64,000 nucleotides of DNA from Rhodospirillaceae bacterium (GTDB lineage: Bacteria; Pseudomonadota; Alphaproteobacteria; UBA6615), in NCBI GenBank assembly GCA_002713365.1, contig PASR01000011.1:69527-133526 (forward strand). The letters are read 5' to 3'. Positions 11,311-21,309 of the stretch are shown here, piece by piece; position 1 is the first letter of the stretch, and every line of letters starts with the position of its first letter. Position numbers and translations under genes: made by a program. Below the pieces are notes generated by a model, which made no database searches, was not told the DNA's origin, and saw only the letters and a list, made by a program, of their open reading frames with translations.

Positions 11311-13134
11311 ATGTGCGGTATTATTGGTATTTTAGGAATAGAAAATGTCGTTTCTCAACTGATTTTTGGTCTTAAGCGGCTTGAATATAGGGGCTATGAT
11401 TCAGCTGGGTTGGCAACATTAGTAAATGGACGCATAGAACGAAGACGTGCAGAAGGAAAAATAGAAAGATTAGAGGCTGAATTAAATTCAAATTCCTTAA
11501 AAGGGGATGTTGGTATTGGACACACTAGATGGGCAACTCATGGCGCTACTAATAAAGTAAACGCTCATCCTCATGCAACTGATAGGGTGGCTGTAGTTCA
11601 CAATGGAATTATAGAAAACTTTCAAGCTCTTCGTCTTGAACTTGCATCGAGTGGTTATAATTTTGAGAGTGATACTGATACAGAGGTAATAGCTAAATTA
11701 ATTACTAGAGAACTAGATAATGGGGCTACAACAAGGCAAGCGGTAGCTAGAACATTACAGCGACTGGAGGGGGCATTCGCTCTAGCAATTATTTTTGCTG
11801 GTGAACATGATATGATGGTTGGAGCGCGGCGGGGGAGTCCACTTGCTATAGGGTACGGCGAAGGTGAGATGTATTTAGGTTCTGATGCCCTAGCACTTGC
11901 GCCACTTACAAAACGAATTTGTTATTTAGAAGAGGGTGATTGGACGTTAATTACCTCTCAAGGAGCTAAAATATTTAATGATAAGAATGTATTAGTTGAC
12001 CGTGAAATTTGTGAGACCCAACTATCGGGCGCGCTAATTGGTAAAGGTAATTATGATCATTTTATGCAGAAGGAAATTTTTGAACAACCAGCAGTTGTTG
12101 GAGATACTCTTCAGAGTTTTATAAATGCCAATACCTTAGAAGTTTCTCTTCCAGTTCTTCCTTTTAAACTAAGGGATATACCACGAATAACTGTAATAGC
12201 TTGTGGAACAGCTTTTTACGCTGGCGGTGTAGCTAAATATTGGTTAGAACAGATTGCTAAAATATCTACCGAAATAGATGTGGCATCCGAGTTTAGGTAC
12301 CGTAAGGCACCGATGTCAGAGGGAGGGGTCGCACTTTTCGTTAGTCAATCTGGTGAAACTGCAGATACTCTTGCAGCTTTAAGACATTGCCGTGAAAATG
12401 GACAGTATATAGTTTCGGTAGTTAATGTAGCAGAAAGTTCGATTGCACGTGAATCAAATGTTATTTTACCTACTTTAGCAGGTCCTGAAATAGGTGTTGC
12501 GTCAACTAAAGCATTTACCACTCAACTAACGTCCCTAGCGTGTTTTGTGATAGCTGCGGGTAGGGCTTCTGGTGCACTTAATTCGGCTGCCGCTGCATCA
12601 TTAGTTAAATCACTTACTGAAGTACCGTCTAGAATGGCAGAGGTGCTAAACCATGACCAAGATATTCGACATTTAGCGGCAGATATTGCAAAAGCGAGAG
12701 ACGTACTTTATTTGGGGCGAGGAACAGCTTACCCTTTAGCCCTAGAGGGTGCATTAAAGTTGAAAGAAATATCTTATATTCATGCTGAAGGTTATGCCGC
12801 CGGAGAGATGAAACATGGGCCCATAGCCCTGATTGATGATGGGGTACCAGTTATCGTTTTAGCCCCACCTGGAGCACTTTTTGATAAGACTCTTTCAAAT
12901 GTTCAAGAAGTTATAGCACGAGGTGGTAAGGTAGTTTTTATATCCGATAGTGAAGGAGTAAGACGATTAGGAAATAAAAGCTGGGTAAGCATAACTATGC
13001 CCGAAGTTGACGATTTCGTCGCGCCACTTCTATATGCTATACCAATTCAATTATTGGCTTATCATGCTGCTGTATTTAGAGGTACAGATGTGGACCAACC
13101 CCGAAATCTAGCAAAAAGTGTCACAGTAGAATAA
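11311..13134 (+). CDS. glmS: Glutamine-fructose-6-phosphate aminotransferase (isomerizing)
   Basis: First committed step of amino-sugar synthesis: fructose-6-phosphate plus glutamine gives glucosamine-6-phosphate. The 607 residues match the standard length. The N-terminal class II glutaminase begins MCGIIGILG with catalytic Cys2, then HTRWATHG. Two SIS sugar-isomerase domains follow, with ACGTAFYAG and SQSGETADT in the first and the EGALKLKEISY segment in the second. The C-terminus ends LAKSVTVE, as is typical of the family. It is translated just behind glmU (7-bp gap), which implies a shared message. There is no evidence of a glmS ribozyme, which is in any case a Gram-positive feature. Confidence 0.97.
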   Translation: MCGIIGILGIENVVSQLIFGLKRLEYRGYDSAGLATLVNGRIERRRAEGKIERLEAELNSNSLKGDVGIGHTRWATHGATNKVNAHPHATDRVAVVHNGIIENFQALRLELASSGYNFESDTDTEVIAKLITRELDNGATTRQAVARTLQRLEGAFALAIIFAGEHDMMVGARRGSPLAIGYGEGEMYLGSDALALAPLTKRICYLEEGDWTLITSQGAKIFNDKNVLVDREICETQLSGALIGKGNYDHFMQKEIFEQPAVVGDTLQSFINANTLEVSLPVLPFKLRDIPRITVIACGTAFYAGGVAKYWLEQIAKISTEIDVASEFRYRKAPMSEGGVALFVSQSGETADTLAALRHCRENGQYIVSVVNVAESSIARESNVILPTLAGPEIGVASTKAFTTQLTSLACFVIAAGRASGALNSAAAASLVKSLTEVPSRMAEVLNHDQDIRHLAADIAKARDVLYLGRGTAYPLALEGALKLKEISYIHAEGYAAGEMKHGPIALIDDGVPVIVLAPPGALFDKTLSNVQEVIARGGKVVFISDSEGVRRLGNKSWVSITMPEVDDFVAPLLYAIPIQLLAYHAAVFRGTDVDQPRNLAKSVTVE

Positions 13135-14285: not shown

Positions 14286-14347
14286 TCACCTATCATATCT
14301 CTTGGATATTACACCCATTAAAACCCTCTGTTTTACCCAATACGTTT

Positions 14348-16348
14348 TTACACATAAATATGATCTGGATCTAATCCATGTTGGTGTCTGTCATATATAG
14401 TCAAATAAGCAGACTCGAGATGTCGTGTAAACAATGGGGTGTCATATAGTGGCGCTGTGGGTAAATTATTGATCAACTTGTCTTTGATGATTTTTAACTT
14501 TTCTGGGTGTAATGCTAGTTGGATAGCAAGTGACTCGTATTGCTCTTGGGTCGTGGTAATCAATTCCGGTAAATTAACGGCATTTAGAAGACTTGCGCCA
14601 ACTCTGCTGGCAAAAGAGTTTCCAATACAACTTAATACCGGCAACCCCATTCTAAGTGCATCGCTAGCAGTAGTGCCCGCATTGTAAGGAAGTGTATCTA
14701 AAAAAAGATCTGTAATCCTATATCTTGCCAAATATTCAGTCATAGGCAAACGTTTTCCGAAAATAAGTCTATTTGGGTGAATACCCTTACGGACACTTTC
14801 TCTAGTTAAATTTATTTTTGCAGTTTTATTATCTTCCAAAAGTAGTAACACACTGCCTTCAACCTGTTTGAGTATCCTCGCCCATCCATCAAAAGTAGTT
14901 GGTGTTATTTTATAGGTGTTATTGAAACAGCAAAAAACGAACCCTTCCTCAGGAAGTCCAATATCTTCTCGGGTAAATATAGCATCTGGGATACATTTTT
15001 TTGAATCATTTACTTGATAACTTGGTAAATAAACAATCTTTTCTGAATAGTATTCTTTATTATTTTCAGGAATTATTGTTTGATCTGCTAATAAATAGTC
15101 ATAATAGCTAGCGCCCATTGTTCCAAGATAACCAATATAACTTAATTGGATAGGTGCTGCTGACATTGCAAATATCCCGGTTCTGGAATCTCGGGTAAAT
15201 CCTCCCAGATCTATCGCAATATCTATTTCAACCGACCTGGCAAGTATGGCTGCATCTTTATCAGACATCTCTCGGATATCATGAAAATGATCAACTCCTG
15301 TTTGAATTCTCAAATGCATTTCATCTTTGGCATCAGGACCATATGAAAAAGCATAAACTTCAAATTTATTTCTATCATGAATTTCGTAAAGTTCTGCAGT
15401 TAAATATGATACGGGATGATTTCTAAAGTCTCCAGAAAAATACCCAATTCGAATTCTTTCGTGCCTATTATTTCGGTTTATTTTGGTTTTTATATTTCTC
15501 TTTGGGTACTTCTCCTTAACATATATTTCTGAAGTTCTTCTATGAATAAGAGAATCGTCAACCAGAGACAGCATCTGAAGAGGATGAGAAACTATGTTTC
15601 CATTATTAATCTTATTTATTAATTCATTAAGATGTTTCTGATGGTTATTCCATATAAAAAGAGATCTTTTGGTATACGACAATTCGCCTAAGACAAAGTC
15701 CATATCTGGGTTTAGAGAGTTGGCACGTTCAAAACTCACCAATGCTTCGTCTAGTCGCTTGAGAAATTTTAGAGTAACACCACGATTAGCGTGCGCGTTG
15801 GCATTATTAGGATTTAAAGTAATAGCGCGATCAAGACTTATTAATGCTTCATCCAGTCGTTTGAGCTCATTTAAGATAAAACCTCGATTCGAATATGGAT
15901 CAGCAAAATTCGGTTTTAAAGCAATAGCACGGTCATAACTTATTAGTGCTTCATCTAGACGTTTGTGGTCTAGCAGGGTATTGCCACGGTTAGAATGTGC
16001 CTCAGCAAAATCCGGTTTTAGAGCTATAGCATGATCAAAACTTTCTAGTGCTTCATCCAGTCGTTTGAGGTCTCGTAAGGCATTGCCACGATTATTAAGA
16101 GCATTAGTTTGGTTCGGATCTATTTGTAGAGATTCACCTATAATTTTTACTGCATCTTCTAATCTTCCTTTTTGGAGTGCAAGAGTTCCAAACATAGTTA
16201 ATAGTGATACATTCGTAGGTAGATAGATGAGTAGTTTTTTATACTGAATTTCTGCTAGATCCAACTGACCCGAGTGATGTAATGCAAATGCCTCTTCGAT
16301 CATCTCGTTTTGTTTTGGTGTAGGTTCTATAGGTTTTTTATGTTGCAT
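14348..16348 (-). CDS. TPR-repeat / O-linked N-acetylglucosaminyltransferase-like (GT41) protein
   Basis: A 666-residue protein. The N-terminal half (about 12-235) is a run of tetratricopeptide repeats with phrases such as NRGNALRDLKRLDEALESF that recur nearly unchanged every 34 residues. The C-terminal part (about 285-650) matches the SPINDLY/OGT catalytic domain: GYFSGDFRNHPVSYLTAELY, IDLGGFTRDSRTG, PIQLSYIGYLGTMG and the nucleotide-binding LDTLPYNAGTTASDAL. Bacterial relatives transfer GlcNAc or other sugars to protein serine/threonine, or are linked to glycan export. No signal peptide is seen, so it is probably cytoplasmic. It is monocistronic, divergent from the repeat-protein array that begins 133 bp away. 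The near-identical 102-bp DNA repeats could change in number by slippage. Confidence 0.88.
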   Translation of the reverse strand: MQHKKPIEPTPKQNEMIEEAFALHHSGQLDLAEIQYKKLLIYLPTNVSLLTMFGTLALQKGRLEDAVKIIGESLQIDPNQTNALNNRGNALRDLKRLDEALESFDHAIALKPDFAEAHSNRGNTLLDHKRLDEALISYDRAIALKPNFADPYSNRGFILNELKRLDEALISLDRAITLNPNNANAHANRGVTLKFLKRLDEALVSFERANSLNPDMDFVLGELSYTKRSLFIWNNHQKHLNELINKINNGNIVSHPLQMLSLVDDSLIHRRTSEIYVKEKYPKRNIKTKINRNNRHERIRIGYFSGDFRNHPVSYLTAELYEIHDRNKFEVYAFSYGPDAKDEMHLRIQTGVDHFHDIREMSDKDAAILARSVEIDIAIDLGGFTRDSRTGIFAMSAAPIQLSYIGYLGTMGASYYDYLLADQTIIPENNKEYYSEKIVYLPSYQVNDSKKCIPDAIFTREDIGLPEEGFVFCCFNNTYKITPTTFDGWARILKQVEGSVLLLLEDNKTAKINLTRESVRKGIHPNRLIFGKRLPMTEYLARYRITDLFLDTLPYNAGTTASDALRMGLPVLSCIGNSFASRVGASLLNAVNLPELITTTQEQYESLAIQLALHPEKLKIIKDKLINNLPTAPLYDTPLFTRHLESAYLTIYDRHQHGLDPDHIYV

Positions 16349-16480
16349 GATTATGACGTATTTGATTGACTGTAAAATAATGAAATTATTATTATAATAA
16401 CTACTAACATAGGTTTAAGTCTATTTACCCAATTTGCTGAGTATAGGTTTATTGTATGCATATGTAGAATTAAAAGTTTA

Positions 16481-16521
16481 TTAGACTCCTCAACAACACC
16501 AAAATATGCTAGAGTTTCTGT
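16481..16521 (+). repeat. 41-bp array leader element, copy A
   Basis: This element ends at the base before the ATG of the 16522 gene. It matches copy B at 34 of 41 positions without gaps. Read on the minus strand it encodes T-L-A-Y-F-G-V-V-E-E-S, the same recombinase segment as in copy B. Confidence 0.85.
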
Positions 16522-17040
16522 ATGAGAAATCTCACCATCACATTTCTGACTATTGTGTTCTGTCTCACATCCTCAATTGCGTTCAGTGAAACAGTTAAAC
16601 CAGAGTTTTTGAAGGAACGTAATGGAATTATCTACAAGAAGAAGGTCTCTAACAAACCTTACTCTGGTTACGTGGAGGGTAAAAAAGAGAATGGATTCTT
16701 AGTGAGAGGAACTTACCAGAATGGTAAGAAAGAAGGTGTTTGGAAAACGTATGACTGGGATGTTCAGTTATGGACAAAAAGAACCTTCAAGGACGGTAAG
16801 TTAGATGGTATTTCGGAAACTTATTACGACAATGGTCGGTTAGAAAACAAAATAAATTATAAGAACGGTAAGATGAATGGTCTTTCCGAATTTTATGACG
16901 ACAAAGGTCAGTTAAGGTTTCTAGAAACATGGAAGAACGGTAAGAAAGAAGGTGTTTGGGAATTGTATCATCAGAATGGTCAGTTATGGAAAAAAGAAAC
17001 TTACAAGGACGATAAGTTAATCAAGACAGAGAAGTTTTAA
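16522..17040 (+). CDS. Secreted YwqK-type repeat protein (array gene A)
   Basis: A 172-residue protein with a signal peptide (first 22 residues, ending SSIAFS) followed by about six repeats of the YwqK/MORN-like pattern 'G-t-Y-k-n-G-k-k-e-G-v-W-e-Y-y-d-n-G-q-l'. Pfam calls this MORN_2; annotation pipelines often name it 'toxin-antitoxin YwqK family antitoxin', but nothing here shows a toxin partner. The repeats form beta-hairpins; in relatives the role is scaffold or binding, mostly unproven. Export to the periplasm or surface is likely. The stop codon lies inside the shared 38-bp 3' element. It is the first gene of the five-gene array. Confidence 0.8.
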   Translation: MRNLTITFLTIVFCLTSSIAFSETVKPEFLKERNGIIYKKKVSNKPYSGYVEGKKENGFLVRGTYQNGKKEGVWKTYDWDVQLWTKRTFKDGKLDGISETYYDNGRLENKINYKNGKMNGLSEFYDDKGQLRFLETWKNGKKEGVWELYHQNGQLWKKETYKDDKLIKTEKF

Positions 17041-17072
17041 GACTTACTAGTCCAACGCACGATAAACTGATG
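17035..17072. repeat. 38-bp array 3' element, copy 1
   Basis: It begins at the TTTTAA that includes the stop of gene A and matches the element at 17608-17645 at 34 of 38 positions. In antisense it encodes the end of a recombinase (T-S-V-Y-R-A-L-D, then stop). Confidence 0.85.
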
Positions 17073-17166
17073 TACGACCTATTCCTAATTCCTTTGAAAT
17101 CGCAGATGCACCTAAACCACTAAAGTTAGACTCCTCAACTTTATCAAAATATGCCAGAGTTTTGGT
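17047..17166 (-). pseudogene. C-terminal remnant of a serine recombinase (resolvase/invertase) with HTH
   Basis: The minus strand between genes A and B reads without interruption for 39 codons to a TAG stop at 17047. The product contains S-G-L-G-A-S-A-I-S-K-E-L-G-I-G-R-T-S-V-Y-R-A-L, the classic C-terminal helix-turn-helix of Hin/Tn3-resolvase-type serine recombinases, preceded by T-L-A-Y-F-D-K-V-E-E-S. The catalytic domain is missing: where it should continue, gene B starts on the opposite strand. It is therefore a fragment and not a working enzyme. Parts of the same tail recur beside the other array genes. Confidence 0.8.
17126..17166 (+). repeat. 41-bp array leader element, copy B
   Basis: This copy ends directly before the ATG of the 17167 gene. 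I used it as the reference copy, as it is still continuous with an intact recombinase-tail reading frame on the minus strand. Ungapped identity by hand: A 34/41, C 31/41, D 26/41, E 24/41. Confidence 0.85.
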
Positions 17167-17607
17167 ATGAATAAAGAAACCCCCAAAGTATCTCCTGACG
17201 ATTTAGTTGTTCGTTATGGAATTACCTACAAGAAGTTCACTAACATTCCATTCACTGGTTATGTGGAGGGGGTACCAAAAGGGACTTATAAGAACGGTAA
17301 GAGAGATGGTGTTTGGGAAATGTATCACTTGAATGGCCGGTTATGGATGGAAGGAGCTTACAAGGACGGTAAGAAAGAAGGTGTTTGGGAAGAGTATGAA
17401 GACGATGGTCGGTTATATAGAAAGGGAAGTTACACGGACGGTAAGGAAGAAGGTGTTTGGGAATTCTATTACCAGAATGGTCAGTTATATCAAAAAGGAA
17501 CCTACAAGAACGATAAGAGAGATGGTGTTTGGGAATTTCATAATGAGAATGGTTCGTTATCATCCAAAACAACTTACAAAGACGGTGAGATAATTAACAT
17601 AGAATAA
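17167..17607 (+). CDS. YwqK-type repeat protein without signal peptide (array gene B)
   Basis: A 146-residue protein of about five YwqK/MORN_2-like repeats (units such as GTYKNGKRDGVWEMYHLNGRL). Unlike gene A there is no hydrophobic N-terminus; it begins MNKETPKVSPDDLVVRYGIT, so it is probably cytoplasmic. The opening 'RYGITYKKFTNIPFTGYVEG' is closely like the region after the signal peptide in gene A, and like gene D, so A, B and D are paralogues. The DNA repeats inside the gene are near-identical (phrases coding DGVWE or EGVWE recur about every 69 bp), giving room for unequal recombination. The same 38-bp element as behind gene A starts at the base after its stop. Confidence 0.78.
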   Translation: MNKETPKVSPDDLVVRYGITYKKFTNIPFTGYVEGVPKGTYKNGKRDGVWEMYHLNGRLWMEGAYKDGKKEGVWEEYEDDGRLYRKGSYTDGKEEGVWEFYYQNGQLYQKGTYKNDKRDGVWEFHNENGSLSSKTTYKDGEIINIE

Positions 17608-17645
17608 TTTTAAGACTTACTGTTCTAATGCACGATAAACTGATG
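17608..17645. repeat. 38-bp array 3' element, copy 2
   Basis: It follows the stop codon of gene B directly. The minus strand again ends in S-V-Y-R-A-L-E-Q and a TAA stop, but the recombinase frame is lost within a few codons upstream, so this copy is more decayed than the one at 17035. Confidence 0.82.
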
Positions 17646-17689
17646 AATTAAGGATAAAGTAAGTAATGGATCCTATAACCACCGAATCC

Positions 17690-17718
17690 CACCAATCCAT
17701 CACCGTGGAATAGTGGTG
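17690..17718 (+). other. Stem-loop of a two-copy element, copy 1
   Basis: A stem of CACCA against TGGTG, plus a closing T-A after one mismatch, encloses a 15-base loop (17697-17711). The surrounding sequence resembles the second copy at 18456-18489: the loop shares ccgtg.aat and the 3' flank shares the run ggtaagt. The stem bases differ between copies yet pairing is retained. Confidence 0.5.
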
Positions 17719-17761
17719 TAGGGGGGTAAGTTTACACTTGATTCCCTATTGAACTAAACTA

Positions 17762-17914
17762 TTACTCATCTTTCTCTAGATTACCCATTTCTATAATTTC
17801 GTCTATATGTCTATTGCAACCTATACAAATATTCTCCTCATTAAGAGTACATGTCCCGATACAGGGACTATCTCTCCGTATATCCTCTTTAGTTCTTTTC
17901 ATTTGGCGTAACAA
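17762..17914 (-). CDS. DUF1289-family small cysteine protein
   Basis: A short gene of 50 codons that is easy to miss. The protein carries the DUF1289 signature S-P-C-I-G-T-C-T-L at about residues 16-24 and C-I-G-C-N-R-H-I-D-E-I at about 30-40, that is two CxxxC/CxxC pairs that probably bind a metal such as zinc or an iron-sulfur cluster. The family is common in proteobacteria and uncharacterised. The TTG at 17914 is preferred because GGAG lies 8 bases upstream; the ATG at 17902 (46 residues) lacks a ribosome-binding site. A 22-codon open frame just upstream (start about 17966) overlaps it by ATGA and might be a leader. It is the only minus-strand gene inside the repeat-protein block. Confidence 0.75.
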   Translation of the reverse strand: MLRQMKRTKEDIRRDSPCIGTCTLNEENICIGCNRHIDEIIEMGNLEKDE

Positions 17915-18161
17915 GATATCTCTCCACAACCATTTATATCTACCTGATTTGTTTCAAACTTACCCATTAAACTTAACTACGTATCATCTGAAACCTTCCA
18001 AATGAGTTTTTGGATATAAGAAGTATTATGATTTATAAGTGATATATACAATGCTCTTCCTCATTTTAGTTCAATTACTATACTTTTGGATAACTTCATT
18101 AGTAGAGTTAAATTCTAGTTCAAAAACAACTCTATTATATTTTAATAATTAGGGGGAAATT

Positions 18162-18419
18162 ATGAATATATGCGTCGTATCAACTTTTGACGGTACCACT
18201 GATGACTATATGGAGATGTTTAATGTCACTAAAGAAAAGGCAGCAGATTTTTTCACTGATTACGATATAGGTATTATAAGAGAAGGAAAGATTACTTTGA
18301 TGATTCACATAACCGATATGGAAAAATTTCAGAAATTAATGACTTCTGAAGAAATGCAAGCATGGGATACAAAATTCAATTGTGTTGATGAAGTCTATTC
18401 TTTAGAAAAAATGAATTAA
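18162..18419 (+). CDS. Small conserved-looking protein, unknown function
   Basis: An 85-residue protein with a strong ribosome-binding site (AGGGGGAAATT before the ATG). I do not recognise it firmly. It has no signal peptide or membrane segment. The pattern of strands and helices (strand at 2-8, helix 14-30, strand 37-50, helix 52-66, strand 72-79) and phrases like KITLMIHITDMEKFQKLM resemble the DUF3764 / dimeric alpha-beta-barrel (antibiotic-monooxygenase-like) proteins, in which a small ferredoxin-like fold dimerises. It has no 41-bp leader, so it is not one of the array genes, although it lies among them, between the two stem-loops. Confidence 0.65.
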   Translation: MNICVVSTFDGTTDDYMEMFNVTKEKAADFFTDYDIGIIREGKITLMIHITDMEKFQKLMTSEEMQAWDTKFNCVDEVYSLEKMN

Positions 18420-18455
18420 TAAAAAATTGGAGGGGTTCAACTACAATCACTACTT

Positions 18456-18489
18456 CGAACCACTCCGTATCCGTGTAATAGTGGGTTCG
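18456..18489 (+). other. Stem-loop of a two-copy element, copy 2
   Basis: Nine base pairs (CGAACC-ACT with AGT-GGTTCG, one bulged G at 18483) close a 15-base loop at 18465-18479. The loop has the same length as, and a similar sequence to, the loop of the copy at 17690-17718. It lies 37 bp behind the stop of the 18162 gene; no U-tract follows, so it does not look like a simple terminator. Confidence 0.5.
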
Positions 18490-18600
18490 GTGGTAAGTCA
18501 TCCACAGAGTCCAACACAGAGGTTAACCCAATTGATTATTGATTTATATAAGTCTGTGATAGGAAAAGGTGATATTATTCGTTACTGCACTCCTCTAAAG

Positions 18601-18641
18601 TCAGACTCCCCAACTTCACTAAAATATGCGAGAGTTATACA
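18601..18641 (+). repeat. 41-bp array leader element, copy C
   Basis: This copy ends directly before the ATG at 18642 and has 31 of 41 matches to copy B. In antisense it still reads T-L-A-Y-F-S-E-V-G-E-S-D-F, then a stop a few codons later. Confidence 0.82.
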
Positions 18642-19799
18642 ATGAGAAAACTCAACATCATCATCTGTCTATCATTTGCTTTCATTCTTGGAAGTGCAGG
18701 AAGTAGTGCTGCTTTGCCTCAGTGTTCAGCAGAGTCAGATTACTGGAATAACTGTTTTGGAACTAGAACGTATGATAATGAATATAAATACGTTGGTGAA
18801 TTCAAGGATAACAAGAAACACGGACAAGGCACTTATACTTGGGCGACTGGAAACAAATATGTTGGTGAATTCAAGGATAATAAAATTCATGGAAAAGGAA
18901 CTTTTACCTCTGCCGATGGTGAAAAATACGTTGGTGAATTCAAGAACAATCAAATTCACGGACATGGCACTCGTACCTATTCTGATGGAAGGATAGATGA
19001 GGGTGTATGGGAAAATAATAAATTCAAATATACGCAGTCTGTGGCTGAATACCGTAAAATAAAACTTGCTGAAAAAAAAGCACTTGAAAAAAAACAACTT
19101 GCCGAAATAAGAAAGCGTGAAAAACAAGAACGTGATAAAAAACTTGCGGAACAGAAAAAACAAAGAAAATTAGTAGCCCAGGCAAAACAAGGAAACGCCG
19201 ATGCTCAATTTACTCTGGCTGTTATGTATGAGAACGGGGATGGTGTCCCACGAGATGAAAAGACTGCTATGAAGTGGTACCGACTTGCAGCAGAACAGGG
19301 GCACGATGATGCCAGTGAAAGGTATAGCACATTTATTTTAGAGGATATTATTTATAAAAGTGATGTTCGGGCATTAGTAAATCTTGGTGACTCTTTGGAA
19401 ACAGAATGTAAAAAAGATATAAAATGTGCCTTTATAAAAATATGGACATATATTGATATTACTAAAGATGATCATCTATCAGCGGCTGAAATTGCTCGGT
19501 TCCAAAGAAATATTGTAAAGTTTGCTGCAGCAGATGAGGGTGAAAATGTATTGGAGACTGAAGACTTCGCGGCAATCCAGTTAGCATCAATAATATTTTT
19601 GCCAATTACTGCATCATCAGTTTTGAATAGTTTTGATTACGATAATGATGGGTTGCTCTCAAAAAATGAAGTTTTTGGGGATACAGAGTTTTCTAAATTA
19701 GTAGGAATTAATATAGATATATTTTCAAATGGCTTTGAATTTAAATCTCTGGGAAAAAAATTGCAGGACGCTATGGAAGTAATTCCATTGCTTAAATAA
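18642..19799 (+). CDS. Secreted MORN - coiled-coil - Sel1 - EF-hand protein (array gene C)
   Basis: A 385-residue protein with a four-part build. A signal peptide covers about 1-24 (LGSAGSSAALP). Three to four MORN repeats follow (about 45-125; units such as KYVGEFKDNKKHGQGTYTW). Then comes a highly charged lysine/glutamate helix (about 130-182). A Sel1 repeat lies at about 183-222 (AQFTLAVMYENGDGVPRDEKTAMKWYRLAA). The C-terminal part holds two EF-hand-like loops, DITKDDHLSAAEI (about 271-283) and DYDNDGLLSKNEV (about 330-342). Calcium binding in the periplasm or at the surface is plausible for the second loop, which has acidic or asparagine ligands at 1, 3, 5 and 12. The combination is unusual. 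The first loop has a lysine at position 4 and may be degenerate. Confidence 0.82.
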   Translation: MRKLNIIICLSFAFILGSAGSSAALPQCSAESDYWNNCFGTRTYDNEYKYVGEFKDNKKHGQGTYTWATGNKYVGEFKDNKIHGKGTFTSADGEKYVGEFKNNQIHGHGTRTYSDGRIDEGVWENNKFKYTQSVAEYRKIKLAEKKALEKKQLAEIRKREKQERDKKLAEQKKQRKLVAQAKQGNADAQFTLAVMYENGDGVPRDEKTAMKWYRLAAEQGHDDASERYSTFILEDIIYKSDVRALVNLGDSLETECKKDIKCAFIKIWTYIDITKDDHLSAAEIARFQRNIVKFAAADEGENVLETEDFAAIQLASIIFLPITASSVLNSFDYDNDGLLSKNEVFGDTEFSKLVGINIDIFSNGFEFKSLGKKLQDAMEVIPLLK

Positions 19800-19818
19800 A
19801 AGATAGTATTCAATAAAA

Positions 19819-19859
19819 TTATTTACCCCAATTTTTTTATAGTCTGCCAGGGTTTTAAA
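19819..19859 (+). repeat. 41-bp array leader element, copy D
   Basis: A diverged copy (26 of 41 matches to copy B) ending directly before the ATG at 19860. The best preserved part is the 3' half around TGCCAG-GGTTTT. Confidence 0.65.
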
Positions 19860-20300
19860 ATGAATAAAAACACTTCGACAATTACTCTATCTGATTTGGT
19901 AGAACGTGACGGAATTACCTACTTTAAGTTAAATAATTTTCCTTTTAGTGGCTCTGTAAAGGGCAACCAGGTAGGAACTTACAATAGAGGTTTAAAAGAA
20001 GGTCTTTGGGCATACTATTATAAGATGATGGGGCAGATAGAAAGAAAGGGAACCTATAGTAAAGGTTTTAGGCAGGGTATTTGGAAAACGTATTTCAAAA
20101 ATGGTCAGTTATACAGCAAAGGAACTTACAGTGACGGCAAAAAACAAGGCCTTTGGGAATATTTTCATAAGAATGGTAAGAGATGCCGTAAAGCAACTTA
20201 CATTGATAACGCAGAAGAAGGTATTTGTGAATATTTTGATAAGAATGGTAGGCTAGAATACAAAGAAATGTACAAAGACGGTATGAAGATACCAGACTAA
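19860..20300 (+). CDS. YwqK-type repeat protein without signal peptide (array gene D)
   Basis: A 146-residue protein, the same length as gene B and built the same way: a short polar N-terminus (MNKNTSTITLSDLVERDGIT), then about five YwqK/MORN_2 repeats such as GTYSDGKKQGLWEYFHKNGK. There is no signal peptide. It is clearly a paralogue of gene B but its repeats have drifted more at the DNA level. The minus strand over its stop reads I-V-Y-R-D-S-stop, possibly a last trace of the recombinase tail found behind genes A and B. Function unknown; a binding or scaffold role is the usual guess for such repeats. Confidence 0.78.
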   Translation: MNKNTSTITLSDLVERDGITYFKLNNFPFSGSVKGNQVGTYNRGLKEGLWAYYYKMMGQIERKGTYSKGFRQGIWKTYFKNGQLYSKGTYSDGKKQGLWEYFHKNGKRCRKATYIDNAEEGICEYFDKNGRLEYKEMYKDGMKIPD

Positions 20301-20425
20301 CTATCCCTATAAACGATAGAGTGAGTATAATCTGAATACCTGCGCTCCTTGTTATCCTAACATTTACCAATAGTGATAAAGTAGGGAAAACTATTTAGTA
20401 TAATCACCTTACCTATCCATTAAAA

Positions 20426-20466
20426 CTAGAGCCCCTATTTAAATCAAAGTCAGCTAGTATTTTCGA
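20426..20466 (+). repeat. 41-bp array leader element, copy E
   Basis: The most diverged copy (24 of 41 ungapped matches to copy B), ending directly before the ATG at 20467. It is supported mainly by position and by the runs TAGA, ATCAAA and TTTT in register. Confidence 0.5.
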
Positions 20467-21309
20467 ATGAATAAATTTACTATCATAGTTCTTGCTATTG
20501 TATTCTGTTTAACTACCTCGATTGCTTGGAGTAAAACTGATGAAGTTTTGGTTCCAAAAACTTTAATTTTAGAAGCTAGGAAGTCTGAAGAAACCTATCG
20601 CTTGATAAACTCTCTATTTACTCAAGGTGGTAATGCAATTGAGGTTTCAGATTGCAGTCATCCACAGTTTGGACCACATATAACTCAGAATTTTGATAAA
20701 AACCTTAAAAAATATGTATTCCGTTTTCATATTCATCGGGACCATGATTCTGATAGATGTAAGTTATTTGGACGCCAAAGAACTGAAATCAAAGTATACG
20801 ATAAATCCCCCGACTGGTTAAAAGCCAGGAAACAAAGTAAATTTATTTATAAATGGAAGTTTAAATTAGATGAAAAATTTCAGTCTTCTCGATATTTTAC
20901 ACATTTGTTTCAGGTGAAGGCTGTGGGCGGTTTATATTTTAAACACCCAGTGATTACATTTACCACTCGTAAAGGGCTTGCAGGTCAAGAAGATAAATTT
21001 GAACTTCGTTATGGAACTAAACATAAAAGTGAAAATATTCTTGTTGCACAATTATCGCCTTTTTTAGGCAAGTGGTTACAAGTAGTTTTTGAGGCAACAT
21101 TTGCAGAAAAAGGTAGACTTTTTGTAAAAATAACTTCTCTCGAAAACGGTACTGAATTACTTAGCTATAAAAATACATCCATTAAAATATGGAAAGATGA
21201 ATCCAAATATTTGAGACCGAAGTGGGGGGTTTATAGGAGTTTAAAAGATAAGAGTATGCTAAGAGATGAAATTATAGATTTTGCTGATATTGAAATTCAG
21301 GCTAATTAG
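20467..21309 (+). CDS. Secreted jelly-roll protein, possible polysaccharide lyase (heparin-lyase-like) (array gene E)
   Basis: A 280-residue protein with a signal peptide (about 1-22) that is strikingly like that of gene A (both contain IVFCLT.SIA.S). The mature part is rich in beta strands and contains FGRQRTEIKVYDKSP (about 98-112) followed by YKWKFKLDEKFQSSRYFTHLFQVK (quoted in two pieces: YKWKFKLDEKF and SSRYFTHLFQVK). Such an R-x-E-I/L strand next to a W-x-F-x-L strand is typical of concanavalin-like folds of the heparin-lyase-I / PL20 group. It would cleave or bind an acidic polysaccharide outside the cytoplasm. Catalytic residues cannot be assigned by eye, so a non-enzymatic carbohydrate-binding role remains possible. 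Confidence 0.6.
   Translation: MNKFTIIVLAIVFCLTTSIAWSKTDEVLVPKTLILEARKSEETYRLINSLFTQGGNAIEVSDCSHPQFGPHITQNFDKNLKKYVFRFHIHRDHDSDRCKLFGRQRTEIKVYDKSPDWLKARKQSKFIYKWKFKLDEKFQSSRYFTHLFQVKAVGGLYFKHPVITFTTRKGLAGQEDKFELRYGTKHKSENILVAQLSPFLGKWLQVVFEATFAEKGRLFVKITSLENGTELLSYKNTSIKIWKDESKYLRPKWGVYRSLKDKSMLRDEIIDFADIEIQAN

Follow-up and report, generated by a model that had tools for sequence, protein, structure and literature searches.

Five copies of a short element in one block of small genes

The window (the whole 64-kb stretch of DNA that was analysed) contains a block of small genes on the same strand, most of which are directly preceded by a copy of a short element, together with a resolvase remnant on the opposite strand. 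The features of the block are as follows:

16481..16521, + strand: element copy A, abutting the ATG of a secreted MORN_2 (YwqK-like) gene
16522..17040, + strand: gene behind A, 172 aa, with a signal-peptide-like N-terminus and MORN_2 repeats (PF07661)
17050..17112, - strand: gamma-delta-type resolvase 3'-end remnant (GLGASAISKELGIGRTSVYRALD*), convergent, between A and B, without catalytic domain
17116..17166 (41-bp core 17126-17166), + strand: element copy B, abutting the ATG of a MORN_2 gene
17167..17607, + strand: gene behind B, 146 aa, MORN_2 repeats
18162..18419, + strand: gene without the element, with AGGGGG (Shine-Dalgarno-like) ahead of it
18591..18641 (41-bp core 18601-18641), + strand: element copy C, abutting the ATG of a MORN-Sel1 gene
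18642..19799, + strand: gene behind C, 385 aa, three MORN motifs and Sel1, with a weak EF-hand match below the cut-off
19809..19859 (41-bp core 19819-19859), + strand: element copy D (divergent), abutting the ATG of a MORN_2 gene
19860..20300, + strand: gene behind D, 146 aa, MORN_2 repeats
20416..20466 (41-bp core 20426-20466), + strand: element copy E (divergent), abutting the ATG of a polysaccharide-lyase-like gene
20467..21309, + strand: gene behind E, 280 aa, with a signal-peptide-like N-terminus and a body weakly like Polysacc_lyase (PF14099), below the cut-off

The initial annotation described five consecutive genes that share a 41-bp element ending at the start codon. All five elements are present where they were claimed, the last base of each lies directly before an ATG, and the hand-counted identities to copy B (34 of 41 for A, 31 for C, 26 for D and 24 for E) are exact. 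The genes are not strictly consecutive, however, as a sixth same-strand gene, 18162, sits within the block, of which five of six members carry the element; that this gene lacks it had been recognized correctly, and with AGGGGG ahead instead it provides an internal contrast. The assignment of the downstream products to MORN_2 (YwqK-like) and MORN-Sel1 families also stands, whereas the proposed EF-hand and lyase similarities are weak and fall below the cut-offs. The genes behind E and A have the signal-peptide-like N-terminus in common, with 43 of their first 60 bases identical.

The raw identity of copies D and E is barely above chance, since 24 to 26 matches in 41 are also reached by other windows. 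A position-weight matrix was built from copies outside the 64 kb, from which the orthologues of A and B in a congeneric genome (G015) and the C10 ywqK copy were excluded. On both strands of the window, the claimed sites occupy ranks 1 to 5, each followed by ATG, with scores of 66.6, 48.5, 44.2, 13.9 (D) and 12.7 (E) bits, while the next-best site scores 1.9 bits and the maximum over six Markov-randomised windows is 7.9 bits. The suspicion that the similarity of copies C to E might be a matter of chance, or that the element might be missing from relatives, was not borne out by these ranks and by its recurrence in the genus. The element is real, well above chance and more than the product of gene duplication.

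Copies, boundaries and downstream genes across the genus

With a genome-wide sequence profile, 13 copies were found in the host genome (G000, 2.52 Mb) at E < 1e-5, the next match being at E = 0.01. Two congeneric genomes contribute 9 and 4 more full copies, so that the three genomes, which are apparently draft assemblies of several contigs each, hold 26 full and four truncated copies, the full ones always in the same orientation to the gene. The truncated copies (G016:C13, L104, near 16532-16573; G015:C8:271145, C4:11971 and C4:12873) have all kept the left half and lost the right (-10) half partly or wholly. The element was absent from all 21 other genomes of the family; a pattern search of public genome contigs (Genome_contigs) matched only Alphaproteobacteria bacterium MarineAlpha12_Bin1, the pattern had no exact match in viral contigs, and plasmids had no match to 16400-17660.

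Two observations concern the count of copies. What may be a further, strongly divergent copy, GTTTAACTCC...ATCAGAGTTCGTGT-ATG, was seen by eye on the minus strand of contig C5 of the host genome (L050) at about 8137, where it was missed by the profiles, and the gene behind it resembles a neighbouring Adhesin_E-family gene. The stretches surrounding C12:230616 (L025) and C9:43624 (L026) of the same genome are identical although they lie on different contigs, which suggests a duplicated region or an assembly overlap.

Conservation reaches beyond the 41 bp, from about -52 to +9 (+1 being the A of the ATG), and peaks in GTTAGACTCCCC (-42..-31) and AAAATATGCCAGAGTTTT (-21..-4) with a dip in between. 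The second peak includes a putative extended -10 block, ATATGCCAGAGTTTT, spanning -18..-4, with TG at -15/-14, A at -11 and T at -7. These columns are nearly invariant among 25 copies (T-15 24/25, G-14 25/25, A-11 24/25 and T-7 24/25), a conservation that could partly stem from recent common origin rather than from selection. In 148 of 201 pairs of copies the homology has its left end at -52..-38, and in 129 of 201 its right end at -3..+15; because homology mostly ends within these limits, what the copies share as a unit is the element rather than the gene. The C9:211k copy and two copies before TPR genes have one or two extra bases ahead of the ATG, and the orthologues before the TRAP-transporter genes have retained the -10 half in all three genomes.

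It had been suggested that one should check whether the copies always abut start codons. Most of them do: 20 of the 26 full copies end 0-2 bases ahead of an ATG that opens a frame of at least 96 aa, but in the remaining six the junction offers no usable ATG. The abutting genes belong to at least eight unrelated families over the three genomes, and at least six families are found behind the 13 copies of the host genome. They include MORN_2, MORN with Sel1, Sel1 alone, Adhesin_E, histidine phosphatase, TPR, an NAD-dependent dehydrogenase of the 3-hydroxyisobutyrate type, a trypsin-like MORN protein, the lyase-like protein and an unknown 264-aa protein. In the six non-abutting copies, the junction ATG either has been changed to ATA or a similar triplet or leads into a short frame of 10 or 16 codons, and each has a same-strand gene 60-123 nt downstream, encoding the TRAP solute-binding protein (in G000 and G015), a methyltransferase, a luciferase-like monooxygenase, a zinc-type dehydrogenase or a MetE-like protein. 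A Shine-Dalgarno sequence precedes none of the 20 abutting genes vs. all six genes downstream of the non-abutting copies (Fisher P = 4.3e-6, a value that counts possibly non-independent events as independent because the copies are mutually related).

Copies A and B bound a stretch that is common to two species. Over 16481-17170, which begins with element A and closes shortly behind the ATG that follows element B, the host genome is 95.8% identical to G015, a figure that could partly result from assembly or binning error because the block lies near a G015 contig end and the assemblies are drafts, whereas the adjacent glmU-glmS DNA is 70.4% identical. The left border of this 691-bp block is copy A, at the T of TTAGAC; the high identity is lost abruptly ahead of this motif and again just past the second element. 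Presence/absence or relocation among close relatives is thus observed, as unit A is followed by a MORN_2 gene in the host genome and by a Sel1 gene in G015, and the element is absent outside the genus. The best reading of this comparison is that unit A is an element-bounded unit that was exchanged between species, probably by homologous or site-specific recombination between copies.

The resolvase remnant between A and B has gamma-delta resolvase as its closest solved relative, with a weak match (E = 0.017), and its HTH_7 match is below the Pfam cut-off. Similar remnants adjoin other copies (17608-17643 in the window, L008:4676-4777, L102:13150-13215 and L103:11990-12040), mostly just downstream of ywqK-type genes. 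The resolvase catalytic domain (PF00239) was found in none of the three genomes. An active serine recombinase is rejected, as only HTH remnants are left.

A putative leaderless promoter and the alternatives to it

We consider it probable that the element is a dispersed leaderless promoter, whose transcripts would begin with the A of the abutting ATG or no more than two bases away from it. Provided that the A of the ATG is counted as +1, T-15, G-14, A-11 and T-7 fall on the positions that define an extended -10 in sigma-70 promoters. The spacing that places +1 at this A is found in the element, although the hexamer itself, CAGAGT, resembles TATAAT only weakly, with C at -12. No -35 element of a known sigma factor can be recognized in the upstream block, and the 20 bp from GACTCC to CAGAGT are long. 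In a background survey of other genes in the genome, with crude start calls, leaderless -10 motifs were not enriched at this register. Promoter activity, an mRNA start at the ATG and spread by recombination are all inferred.

According to the proposed mechanism, the element would consist of the upstream block GTTAGACTCCCC, a loosely conserved spacer and the extended -10 block ATATGCCAGAGTTTT. A start at the A of the ATG would yield an mRNA headed by AUG that requires no Shine-Dalgarno sequence; the element would therefore supply both transcription and a leaderless, AUG-leading message, and this prediction fits the absence of Shine-Dalgarno sequences from the abutting genes. Copies that have lost the ATG may still be promoters, with a leader of 60-123 bases and a normal Shine-Dalgarno sequence at the next gene. 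Within one genus of marine Alphaproteobacteria, the element would have spread probably via duplication and recombination of element-bounded units, which would place unrelated, often secreted, genes behind one start signal. The suggestion in the initial annotation of a common translational or transcriptional control element before unlike genes is well supported in its transcriptional form, as a predicted leaderless promoter, and not in its translational one, as there is neither a conserved RNA fold nor a Shine-Dalgarno sequence in the abutting genes.

A regulon, in which selection at independently evolved promoters kept the binding sites of a single transcription factor or alternative sigma factor alike and no DNA unit was dispersed, would explain why two blocks are well conserved around a more variable spacer and why they are retained in the TRAP orthologues. 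It is nevertheless unlikely, because the spacer and the -52..-43 flank are shared beyond the needs of two binding blocks, several copies have resolvase remnants immediately upstream, homology extends into the first codons of unlike genes, and unit A is common to two species as a whole. Regulon and dispersal are compatible, and a regulon could hold in addition. It is very unlikely that the element belongs to a message that begins further upstream and serves there as a translational enhancer or a structured 5'-UTR. In favour of such a role, it abuts start codons, and most copies could form a 6-bp AGACUC/GAGUUU pairing. However, no consensus fold was found among the copies, compensatory change was seen in none of the six AGACUC/GAGUUU pairs, and where a copy lies 60-123 nt ahead of a gene that has a Shine-Dalgarno sequence of its own, a leader of this kind would hardly be needed.

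Plain tandem duplication of ywqK-type genes, with upstream DNA carried along, agrees with the related MORN_2 genes behind A, B and D and with the inclusion of a resolvase remnant in the A-to-B period. The claim that more than gene duplication is involved is nonetheless confirmed by the dehydrogenase, histidine phosphatase, TPR, trypsin-like, Adhesin_E, Sel1 and MORN_2 families downstream; the element also precedes transporter genes elsewhere, and the occurrence before unrelated families on other contigs and in other genomes refutes tandem duplication as sole explanation, leaving it a highly improbable account. Integron-like gene cassettes are just as improbable. GTTAGAC corresponds to a GTTRRRY core site, the shared block has its left border at the T of TTAGAC, different genes follow unit A, and small genes run in the same orientation. 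However, conservation continues for 36 bp beyond the core to the ATG, unlike at cassette junctions, and other borders lie at -47 and -50. No IntI integrase above the TIGR02249 cut-off was found in the three genomes, where only ordinary tyrosine-recombinase similarity was seen, and an attC-like hairpin was found on neither strand (fold z-scores of 0.48 and -0.06). Integrons are thus largely refuted despite the GTTRRRY-like core. What stands of the earlier description as a cassette-type system is one two-element unit, apparently swapped between species with a different gene behind it; no integron integrase above the cut-off, attC-like fold or serine recombinase was found.

The putative leaderless promoter can be compared with several known systems. 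Mobile promoters are reportedly short promoter-like sequences repeated before non-homologous genes of one genome and its close relatives. The near-identical sequence upstream of non-homologous genes in the host genome resembles them, but it runs right up to the start codon and would bring leaderless translation too, its ATG-less copies precede genes with a leader and a Shine-Dalgarno sequence, two copies enclose one unit, and resolvase remnants adjoin several copies. The element is best classed with the mobile promoters, as a putative variant that extends to the start codon (on putative mobile promoters and promoter propagation: Matus-Garcia et al., 2012, as cited in PMC8049555 and PMC9208149). 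In the alphaproteobacterium Sinorhizobium meliloti, 171 starts of leaderless mRNAs are all AUG (PMC3616915); the promoters of such mRNAs share with the element the predicted start at the A of AUG and the lack of a Shine-Dalgarno sequence, but here one sequence is dispersed before many genes, with an uncommon CAGAGT -10 hexamer and the GTTAGACTCCCC upstream block. Integron gene cassettes likewise form same-orientation runs of small unlike genes and have a GTTRRRY-like motif at the unit border, whereas the element comes without an integrase above the cut-off and without an attC fold, and its conserved stretch extends to the ATG. MITEs and remnants of non-autonomous transposons are similar as dispersed short repeats adjoining recombinase remnants; they differ in that terminal inverted repeats and target duplications were not recognized here on reading the sequences, and in the constant orientation of element and gene among the full copies.

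A further reading, in which the element is both a portable start module and the recombination border of exchangeable gene units, forming an integrase-free cassette system in the genus, is possible but rather doubtful. If it were true, incoming genes, even from other species, would be expressed once they lie behind a copy. If the leaderless-promoter reading is right, a short piece of DNA would give any gene landing behind it a transcription and translation start, making gene acquisition and domain swapping cheap. The element would also be a testable case of mobile-promoter spread without a transposase, and the six ATG-less copies before genes with Shine-Dalgarno sequences would represent a natural experiment in the change from leaderless to leadered promoters.

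The neighbourhood of glmS

In the host genome (glmS at 11311-13134) and in G015 (L102:11296-13119) alike, the cluster follows glmS at a distance of a few kb at most, on the side of the gene that carries the classical Tn7 attachment site. The DNA downstream of glmS is a mosaic between the two genomes. Two more short blocks, 14334-14755 and 17748-17932 (L102:16144-16756), are 93-95% identical to G015 and mutually rearranged, and both adjoin DNA that is about 70% identical to G015.
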